From an uncultured Fluviicola sp. (GTDB taxonomy: Bacteria > Bacteroidota > Bacteroidia > Flavobacteriales > Crocinitomicaceae): a stretch of DNA of 64,000 nt. The notes under the pieces are model-generated. The model did no database searches, was not told the origin of the DNA, and was given only the letters and a program-made list of their open reading frames with translations. Location of the stretch: positions 1 through 64,000 of the forward strand of contig NZ_CAMLDC010000022.1 of assembly GCF_946478805.1 (NCBI RefSeq), read 5' to 3'. The position numbers were made by a program, and so were the translations under genes. Below, one piece after another: positions 35,219-35,740 of the stretch (position 1 is its first letter; each line of letters begins with the position of its first letter).

Positions 35219-35296
35219 GGGGGATTAGCTCAGTTGGTTCAGAGCGCCTGCCTTACAAGCAGGATGTCGGCGGTTCGAATCCGTCATTCCCCACCA
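35219..35296 (+). tRNA. tRNA-Val (anticodon TAC), CCA encoded
   Basis: Full cloverleaf: acceptor GGGGGAT/ATTCCCC (one G-T pair), D-arm GCTC...GAGC, anticodon stem CCTGC/GCAGG with loop CTTACAA giving anticodon TAC, T-arm with loop TTCGAAT, discriminator A at 35293 and encoded CCA at 35294-35296. The last 23 bases (35274-35296) recur exactly at 35676-35698. Confidence 0.97.
35274..35296 (+). repeat. Direct repeat, left copy (tRNA T-loop to CCA)
   Basis: The 3' end of tRNA-Val from the first base of the T-loop (TTCGAATCC...) to the CCA end. Its exact 23-base copy is at 35676-35698, so the GIY-YIG gene is bracketed by direct repeats, as integrated elements in tRNA genes usually are. Confidence 0.9.
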
Positions 35297-35308
35297 CCAC
35301 GAAAGTAG

Positions 35309-35340
35309 AAAAAGGCCTTGCAGATTTGTGAGGCTTTTTT
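35309..35340 (+). terminator. Terminator just after tRNA-Val
   Basis: AAAAAGGCCT (35309-35318) pairs with AGGCTTTTTT (35331-35340), one G bulged, ending in six T. It would stop the tRNA transcript before the GIY-YIG gene, so that gene needs its own start signal. Confidence 0.8.
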
Positions 35341-35361
35341 ATTTGTAGAAATCCACTATTC

Positions 35362-35661
35362 ATGTTCTACACTTACATTCTCTACTCCAAGTCAACAGAT
35401 TCATTTTACAAAGGATCGACCCAAGATATTCAAGAACGCCTTAGAAAACATAATGGAAGGTTTGAAAAAGCGACACGATTTGGAGCACCTTGGATATTGC
35501 TTTGGTATATGGAAAAACCATCTAAAGGTGAAGCTCAAATTCTAGAATACAAACTCAAAAATTTATCTCGAAAAAGAACATGTGATTTCATGCTAAAATA
35601 CATTGACGGAGTCGGCGGACCTGACGAATTGCTTCTTATAAAGCAATTGTCAGGATGCTGA
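35362..35661 (+). CDS. Small GIY-YIG nuclease domain protein
   Basis: A 99-residue protein that is essentially one UvrC-type GIY-YIG domain. The two half-motifs are YTYILYS (residues 3-9) and FYKGST (15-20, with Lys in place of the usual Ile/Val of 'YIG'); the catalytic arginine region is ERLRKHN (Arg26) and the metal-binding glutamate is Glu57 in KGEAQILEYKLK. Relatives are often annotated as 'excinuclease subunit C-like', but they lack the rest of UvrC. The gene lies inside a direct repeat of the tRNA-Val 3' end, and its last 15 codons run through a strong hairpin, so it is probably the nuclease of a tiny mobile element. Confidence 0.9.
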   Translation: MFYTYILYSKSTDSFYKGSTQDIQERLRKHNGRFEKATRFGAPWILLWYMEKPSKGEAQILEYKLKNLSRKRTCDFMLKYIDGVGGPDELLLIKQLSGC

Positions 35662-35675
35662 CCGTAGCGTCAGCA
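35620..35675 (+). repeat. Two adjoining hairpins at the right end of the GIY-YIG unit
   Basis: Hairpin 1: CCTGACGAATTGCTT (35620-35634) pairs with AAGCAATTGTCAGG (35641-35654) with one bulged G. Hairpin 2: TGCTGAC (35656-35662) pairs with GTCAGCA (35669-35675). They are separated by one base, contain the end of the nuclease gene and its stop, and hairpin 2 abuts the tRNA repeat exactly. Confidence 0.85.
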
Positions 35676-35698
35676 TTCGAATCCGTCATTCCCCACCA
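35676..35698 (+). repeat. Direct repeat, right copy of the tRNA-Val 3' end
   Basis: Twenty-three bases identical to 35274-35296 (T-loop, 3' half of the T-stem, 3' acceptor strand, discriminator and CCA). No other tRNA arm is present here, so this is a fragment and not a second tRNA. Confidence 0.95.
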
Positions 35699-35700
35699 AA

Positions 35701-35740
35701 AAGAAAAAAGCGAATTACGAAAGTAGTTCGCTTTTTTCTT
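35701..35740 (+). terminator. Terminator after the right repeat copy (probable original tRNA terminator)
   Basis: AAGAAAAAAGCGAA (35701-35714) pairs perfectly with TTCGCTTTTTTCTT (35727-35740). It follows the right copy of the tRNA end by two bases, as expected if it once terminated tRNA-Val before the nuclease unit came in. Confidence 0.88.

Follow-up and report, generated by a model that had tools for sequence, protein, structure and literature searches.

Introduction

Which kind of genetic element carries a copy of the end of a tRNA gene and places a small nuclease gene between this copy and the original? The question is raised by a locus in a 64,000-nucleotide stretch of DNA from an uncultured Fluviicola sp. 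(Bacteroidota; contig NZ_CAMLDC010000022.1, positions 1 to 64,000), here called the window. In this locus an intact tRNA-Val(TAC) gene is followed by a small GIY-YIG nuclease gene and then by a second copy of the tRNA end. A preliminary description, drawn from the letters of the window, had interpreted the arrangement as a tiny homing-like element that enters tRNA 3′ ends.

Several known systems share single features with this arrangement. Islands inserted by tyrosine integrases are bordered by repeats reaching from the T-loop or the anticodon arm to the tRNA 3′ end, and the host gene is restored upon insertion. REPIN-RAYT and IS200/IS605 are hairpin elements with an HUH/Y1 protein, and Y1 transposases recognise hairpins. 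UPF0213 and Slx1 nucleases are encoded by ordinary cellular genes that are not tied to a tRNA copy. Judged by title and start of abstract, none of the open-licence PMC matches listed deals with chromosomal GIY-YIG units bound to tRNAs or with tRNA copies marked by hairpins.

In this study, we analysed the unit in the window, its relatives at other tRNA genes, and matching sites without it. The presence of the package at many tRNA genes and its absence from matching sites of relatives point to an undescribed kind of selfish element.

Materials and methods

For the scan of genome contigs, an alignment of the window protein with 50 homologues (A1) was used as query. Genes for tRNAs in the loci were located with ARAGORN. 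For analysis of the double hairpin, 25 right ends were hand-picked from the 31 sites with a junction at T54 (alignment A2), while L019, L020, L037, L056, L059 and L066 were left out for their complex or single-hairpin ends. Hairpin pairs were searched with the exact hairpin core and with a structure model, the latter scoring 16 candidates per genome.

Results and discussion

Organization of the unit in the window

The features of the locus are compiled in Table 1. As had been described before, the last 23 nucleotides of tRNA-Val recur exactly, with 402 nt between the starts of the two copies, which is far beyond chance; the 99-residue GIY-YIG gene between the copies was found again by its Pfam match, and a terminator hairpin folds behind each copy. 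The nuclease gene is not bracketed alone, as had been assumed, but together with an 8-nt copy of the 5′ side of the T-stem and two hairpins preceding the outer repeat. The outer copy is thus a T-arm interrupted at position 53|54, the junction of T-stem and T-loop, by a double hairpin, so that the duplication, exact over its 23 bases, starts earlier than had been thought. The double hairpin, the T-stem copy and the tandem arrays presented below had all been overlooked.

Table 1. Positions of the tRNA-Val gene and of the parts of the nuclease unit in the window
Feature	Position	Strand	Basis
Host gene, intact tRNA-Val(TAC)	35219..35296	+	ARAGORN; Rfam RF00005 match at 35219-35293
Inner repeat copy R1, T54 of T-loop to encoded CCA	35274..35296	+	Exact-repeat comparison
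Inner terminator hairpin, 14 pairs	35309..35340	+	Folding, z -4.3
GIY-YIG nuclease ORF, 99 aa, stop codon within hairpin 2	35362..35661	+	ORF list, Pfam
Copy of T-stem 5′ side of tRNA, GTCGGCGG, in frame inside nuclease ORF	35611..35618	+	
Hairpin 1 of double hairpin, bulged G at 35626	35620..35654	+	
Hairpin 2 of double hairpin, abutting T54 of outer copy	35656..35675	+	
Outer repeat copy R2, T54 to CCA	35676..35698	+	Exact-repeat comparison
Outer terminator hairpin, 20 pairs	35699..35742	+	Folding, z -8.4; matches sole terminator of empty tRNA-Val site L167

The last 16 codons and the stop codon of the nuclease ORF are written within the double-hairpin structure, which is why many homologues end in ...GPDELLLIKQLSGC or nearby. 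Folded as single-stranded DNA, positions 35603-35693 gave a z of -7.6. A simple consensus scan of the window found neither terminator, and scanning for promoter and terminator consensus sequences was unhelpful. Behind the outer terminator, a further inverted repeat with 20-nt arms (85%) is located at 35741-35806.

The 402-nt unit contains no integrase gene, the 99-aa ORF leaving no room for one. Two other candidates were rejected. A group I intron with a GIY-YIG endonuclease was dismissed since no group I ribozyme or other intron match was obtained from Rfam at E up to 1 in 35000-36000. An RNA-guided nuclease resembling TnpB, with a guide beside the right end, was dismissed since there is no fixed-length guide, and the copy reaches as far as the tRNA 3′ end from a start in either the T-loop or the anticodon arm.

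The nuclease

Pfam matches of the window ORF were confined to GIY-YIG (PF01541, E 3.4e-15). Throughout the 51 rows of A1, Y16, R26, E62 and N67 are invariant and Y5 is conserved to at least 90%; we take these five to be the catalytic residues of GIY-YIG enzymes. By sequence profile, the nearest solved kin are the YhbQ-like UPF0213 (1zg2, E 1e-10) and Slx1 (7cq2, E 0.007). The predicted model of the protein has a mean pLDDT of 96.7, and a fold search with it placed 1zg2, 6seh and 7cq2 (UPF0213, Slx1) first and I-TevI tenth (E 0.4); site-specific homing is therefore not implied by the enzyme itself. The protein's tail, which is coded within the hairpins, is predicted to form an ordered helix. 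The nuclease core is under purifying selection (dN 0.060, dS 0.86 against the relative L001).

No match of the window protein was found in PHROGs at E up to 0.01 or with PADLOC. The phages searched yielded two weak matches, no relative was present among 11 pattern matches in viral contigs, and the sole NCBIfam match, a group I intron endonuclease, was below threshold.

Association of the nuclease family with tRNA genes

The protein search returned 85 homologues, several of which extend upstream into translated tRNA sequence. The contig scan confirmed 85 relatives, the best 80 of which were retained and correspond to 79 loci, all from Bacteroidota or from MAGs labelled Chlorobiota. A tRNA gene on the same strand was present within 1.5 kb upstream in 63 of the 79 loci. 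When only loci with more than 300 nt of upstream sequence were considered, the share was 60 of 66, compared with 1 of 60 control windows located 2.0-3.5 kb downstream. The tRNAs belong to 12 isotypes. Copies of the repeat at loci with no link to GIY-YIG genes had been named beforehand as a finding that would speak against a mobile unit; the nuclease family instead adjoins many other tRNAs.

With a minimum of 78% of the sequence between T54 and the tRNA end, 43 of 64 sites including the window have a clear outer copy of the end of the resident tRNA, and this search detected none at the other 21; the copies are of the resident isotype because only the resident tRNA is used in the comparison. They start at T54 in 31 cases and on, or close to, the opposite side of the T-loop in 10; another 2 are much longer. 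At 24 of the 43 sites the match stops 17-28 nt after it begins, near the tRNA end, and at 18 it continues for 48-400 nt; the remaining site is L010, whose measured extent is unreliable. Between tRNA-His and the GIY-YIG gene, hairpin-rich repeats (TACTGACGCTC...GGTCAGC) occur in L060, L074 and L076 and a similar hairpin in L058, with no clear outer copy in these loci.

In the window, the direct repeat of the tRNA end restores the tRNA gene, as in tyrosine-integrase islands, and the repeat has the limits of tRNA att sites. The units might thus be passive cassettes moved in trans by a tyrosine recombinase, with an att site that spans the 3′ part of the tRNA from the T-loop (or anticodon arm) onwards and the GIY-YIG gene as cargo or accessory, as in Tsy. 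According to PMC10293859, Tsy also has a GIY-YIG gene, which raises its transposition but is not essential for it. Unlike these islands, the window unit includes no recombinase gene, its 402 nt being too short for an integrase, and has a hairpin at the junction; hairpins of variable length between the T-stem copy and T54 are also unlike a recombinase arm. We therefore regard such passive movement as improbable.

A complete unit in L035, at about 4940-5330, lies away from any tRNA recognised by ARAGORN and starts exactly at TTCGA. It may be either an ectopic insertion or a relic that lost the 5′ part of its tRNA.

Structure and constraint of the double hairpin

In A2, the T-stem, hairpin 1 with its bulged G, and hairpin 2 form standard pairs in 97.4% of 587 cells, compared with 76.9% in shuffled and 27-48% in slid versions. 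Both sides have changed in 15 of 24 pairs (107 cells vs 25 in shuffles), the T-stem share of this covariation being expected anyway, as both strands of the T-stem are tRNA copies. Of the 278 pairs in hairpin 1, 2 are G-U, as are 3 of the 172 pairs in hairpin 2, compared with 24 of 122 in the tRNA-derived T-stem. The stop codon of the nuclease ORF is located before hairpin 1 in 11 of the 25 rows (in two of them, L018 and L078, the ORF is interrupted further upstream), inside hairpin 1 in 5 and in hairpin 2 in 9, so the structure persists whether or not it is coding. The scarcity of G-U pairs and the upkeep of the hairpins where they are noncoding suggest that the constraint probably acts on DNA rather than on RNA.

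This bears on the idea that the marked copy acts as RNA, e.g. as a tRNA-like 3′ end of the nuclease mRNA or as a decoy, in a domesticated and vertically inherited regulatory unit. Such a role would agree with the entry of the ORF into the structure in 14 of the 25 rows and with the ordered helix predicted for the tail of the window protein. The near absence of G-U pairs from the hairpins argues against it, and we assign it little probability.

The exact hairpin core was found at 7 places in 6 of 20 genomes, 2 of these places by chance. With the structure model and strict filters, hairpin pairs were found in 6 of 296 genomes, one of them (L197) probably a chance match. Nuclease-free hairpin pairs interrupt a copy of the D-loop in L193 (GG^TTAG) and a copy of the acceptor/D-stem in L198 (GAG^TAGC). 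Double hairpins of the same plan at the centres of L195 and L196 are intergenic, with neither a tRNA nor a GIY-YIG gene in these 3-kb loci, and are likewise preceded by G and followed by T. A dispersed REP-like family, considered from these four loci, was dropped as the main reading as the copies are few.

Nuclease-free hairpin pairs are also what transposition proper could leave behind. The nuclease would then recognise the folded double hairpin as the element end and join this end to tRNA-loop sites; each insertion would generate a target duplication, seen as the repeat of about 21-27 nt, and the hairpins would be the GIY-YIG counterpart of REPIN/RAYT or IS200/IS605 ends. The fixed plan of the double hairpin, seemingly kept at the DNA level, suits this explanation, as do the pairs in L193, L198, L195 and L196 (no empty site is known for the intergenic ones) and the L035 unit with its exact start away from an intact tRNA. 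Hairpin pairs are rare, however, and a host-matched T-stem copy between nuclease and hairpin is awkward for a simple element end; to our knowledge there is no GIY-YIG transposase, which we also count against transposition. Overall we consider it unlikely, and the more specific proposal of a transposase-like or structure-guided mobility enzyme, which would recognise the folded double-hairpin end, place it between a G and a T of tRNA loops, duplicate the tRNA end and leave nuclease-free hairpin pairs, seems equally doubtful to us. As in REPIN-RAYT and IS200/IS605, two hairpins in inverted arrangement form one small unit, sometimes without a protein gene, but the family lacks an HUH/Y1 protein, is low in copy number (the 7 exact cores in 20 genomes are far from the many-copy dispersal of REPIN/RAYT) and is mostly bound to tRNA arms.

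Filled, empty, tandem and decayed sites

A homing-like element should be found at some sites and be missing from others. In Maribacter, tRNA-Leu(GAG) was present in the fetched loci of 11 of 12 genomes, with a whole or partial nuclease gene in 7 of the 11 (two cut by contig ends, one a 29-residue remnant) and none in 4. The joined flanks of L130, L132 and L136 aligned without a break to the empty site L133 over 1659-1770 columns with 70-75% identity, spanning the junction. Joined flanks also spanned the junction when aligned to L139 (218 columns), and with L138 and L140 the alignment stopped at or near the tRNA end. No tRNA remnant was present within 1 kb of the four empty sites (L133, L138, L139, L140). 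Two strongly different tRNA-Leu(GAG) sequences occur in Maribacter (L138 and L140 vs L130); that of L138 occupies the same locus, which looks like a replacement of the tRNA itself.

In the family that includes L001, 80 genomes yielded 30 loci for tRNA-Val; of the 27 that could be judged, 7 have a GIY-YIG gene and 20 have none. A tRNA remnant was detected within 1 kb in 5 of these 20 (L159, L161, L164, L171, L180) and none within this distance in the other 15. In L161, a copy located 106-136 nt behind tRNA-Val has its anticodon arm replaced by a palindrome, with no nuclease gene in the 146 nt downstream. The clean empty site L167 aligned to the window without its unit over 382 columns (72.8%) across the junction. 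The single terminator of L167 corresponds to the outer one of the window (score 38.5 vs 9.5 for the inner one), and the inner flank of the window scored best with L155, L157, L156 and L158, all of them GIY-YIG-bearing sites. On the evidence of this one empty site, L167, the match fits the proposal made earlier that the outer terminator belongs to the resident tRNA and the inner one was brought by the element. Sites without the insert, which had been recommended as a check, therefore exist in clean form at tRNA-Leu (L133) and tRNA-Val (L167), and the gene is not fixed in all relatives.

The unit is orthologous at tRNA-Val in the window, L001 and L002 and was thus inherited within that clade; in L001 and L002 the outer repeat continues into the first part of another gene, which is truncated. 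Orthology and purifying selection would also be expected of a domesticated regulatory unit, against which the variation between filled and empty sites inside one genus has to be set.

Tandem arrays were observed in L024, L049, L110, L114 and L123. The array of L110 (genome G013, C34 5500-11500) has 8 GIY-YIG genes at a spacing of about 365 nt, together with tRNA-Met 3′ parts and palindromes, and no intact tRNA was recognised in it by ARAGORN. A scar is present in L186, in which hairpins without the gene are located in a tRNA-Gly/Leu/Gly cluster; the same cluster is filled in L187.

Other tRNA arms, reversed order and isotype switching

Marked copies in other GIY-YIG clades carry the palindrome in place of another arm. 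The anticodon arm or its 3′ side is marked in L114, L116, L157, L158, L200, L208, L213, L217 and L228, the D-loop in L211, and the T-loop, with a simple hairpin, in L115; L219 has a weak left copy only. L157 and L158 occupy the window's own folC/tRNA-Val locus, and this occupation of one tRNA locus by more than one GIY-YIG clade is a further point against domestication as an RNA-acting unit.

Nine loci (L064, L104, L105, L111, L117, L119, L122, L123, L125) show the reversed order of marked 5′ copy, nuclease and intact tRNA. The upstream copy is longer than 20 nt in L064, L105, L122 and L123 and 14-18 nt long in the others. In L064, which was retrieved with the alignment of the window's family, the promoter-side flank is duplicated as well. 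Passive cassettes become still harder to accept with forms that have the intact tRNA last and duplicate its 5′ side, and with D-loop forms. The comparison of these loci suggests that the constant element is the tRNA arm and not the tRNA 3′ end as such. Of the original interpretation, a unit with the nuclease as its only gene that leaves the tRNA intact is retained, while entry at tRNA 3′ ends gives way to the arm as the constant part, the 5′ side being duplicated in some loci.

On a quick tree of the nuclease core (73 rows after 7 short rows of 80 were dropped; 38 of 70 inner branches open), at least 30 isotype changes were required for the 59 labelled rows, compared with a mean of 42.2 and a minimum of 37 in 200 shuffles. 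The clades thus appear to keep to an isotype yet to switch often. L033 (Leu) and L049 (Pro) have a letter-identical hairpin 1 and 73% identity in the core, whereas their tRNA parts agree with the respective host; both tRNAs have the T-stem GCAGG. A nuclease and hairpin 1 common across isotypes with host-matched tRNA parts would be in line with transposition. No recent jump to another isotype was seen, the best cross-isotype pair being this one with 73% in the core.

Proposed homing-like spread and its nearest precedent

SegB of phages T4/T6 is a free-standing GIY-YIG homing endonuclease in tRNA clusters (PMC13096335, PMC2988022). As described in PMC13096335, tandem amplification by homologous recombination depends on SegB, whose motif RAWTSGAAC occurs at 23 of 83 sites and proved not to be a strict requirement in vitro. 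In our comparison, the reverse complement of the motif, GTTCSAWTY, fits the T-loop GTTCGAATC, the joining point of the window unit. The T-loop is unmentioned in PMC13096335, and the words 'hairpin' and 'palindrom' are absent from its main text. Like SegB, the nuclease of the window's family adjoins tRNA genes; unlike the phage gene, the window unit is chromosomal, and it has a hairpin-marked tRNA copy, of which no counterpart is described for SegB in the parts of PMC13096335 considered here.

Measured against Seg-type genes, the family keeps the nuclease domain and the catalytic residues and has occupied and empty alleles at the same site, but its nearest kin are UPF0213/Slx1 rather than Seg/I-TevI nucleases, I-TevI appearing in the fold search only (E 0.4) and PHROGs giving no match at E up to 0.01. 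SegB may be regarded as the nearest precedent, likened by motif and context rather than by direct alignment, while UPF0213/Slx1 is closest to the window protein by profile and fold. Slx1-Slx4 processes branched DNA according to a PDB title, which would suit the folded end of the window unit.

With modest confidence, we favour a homing-like selfish module on tRNA genes, which would break tRNA loops and use a hairpin-marked tRNA copy to spread by recombination. The module would combine the small GIY-YIG nuclease gene with a copy of the host tRNA marked by palindromic hairpins, which break up one loop (the T-loop in the window unit). The nuclease would break intact tRNA genes at that arm, and the marked copy would escape cutting there, its arm being interrupted. 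Repair of the break by recombination with the tRNA sequence carried by the module would then leave the module beside an intact tRNA, with the tRNA end and terminator (or the 5′ part and promoter) restored. A crossover 3′ of the hairpin would place the intact tRNA first, as in the window, and one 5′ of it would place the intact tRNA last, as is also observed. Recombination between the direct repeats may subsequently have produced the tandem arrays, hairpin-only scars and losses that were seen.

We count for this module the tRNA association, the outer copies, covariation with scarce G-U pairs, the empty sites, the arrays and the scar L186, and also the copies marked in other arms, the forms with the intact tRNA last, purifying selection and the fit of the SegB motif. 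Against it, the presumed target is retained in the intact adjoining tRNA, so that self-cutting would need to be either avoided or tolerated, and the homology of the window unit is short for recombination (8 nt on the left, 23 nt on the right). The orthology in the window, L001 and L002, as vertical inheritance would give, the 21 of 64 sites with no clear outer copy, the closeness of the enzyme to UPF0213/Slx1 and the lack of a recent cross-isotype jump also count against it.

Conclusions

For annotation, our results are a warning that tRNA and hairpin sequence encodes the C-termini of several 'putative endonucleases'. If a transposase-like reading were true, a further kind of tRNA-targeting mobility would exist beside tyrosine recombinases and retroelements. 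If the homing-like module is right, many tRNA genes of Bacteroidota host a selfish element of about 0.4 kb that keeps the host gene working via a spoiled duplicate. It would then become testable why GIY-YIG nucleases cluster at tRNAs, how bacterial tandem tRNA-gene arrays and pseudo-tRNAs arise, and whether a nuclease of the UPF0213/Slx1 type can drive mobility.
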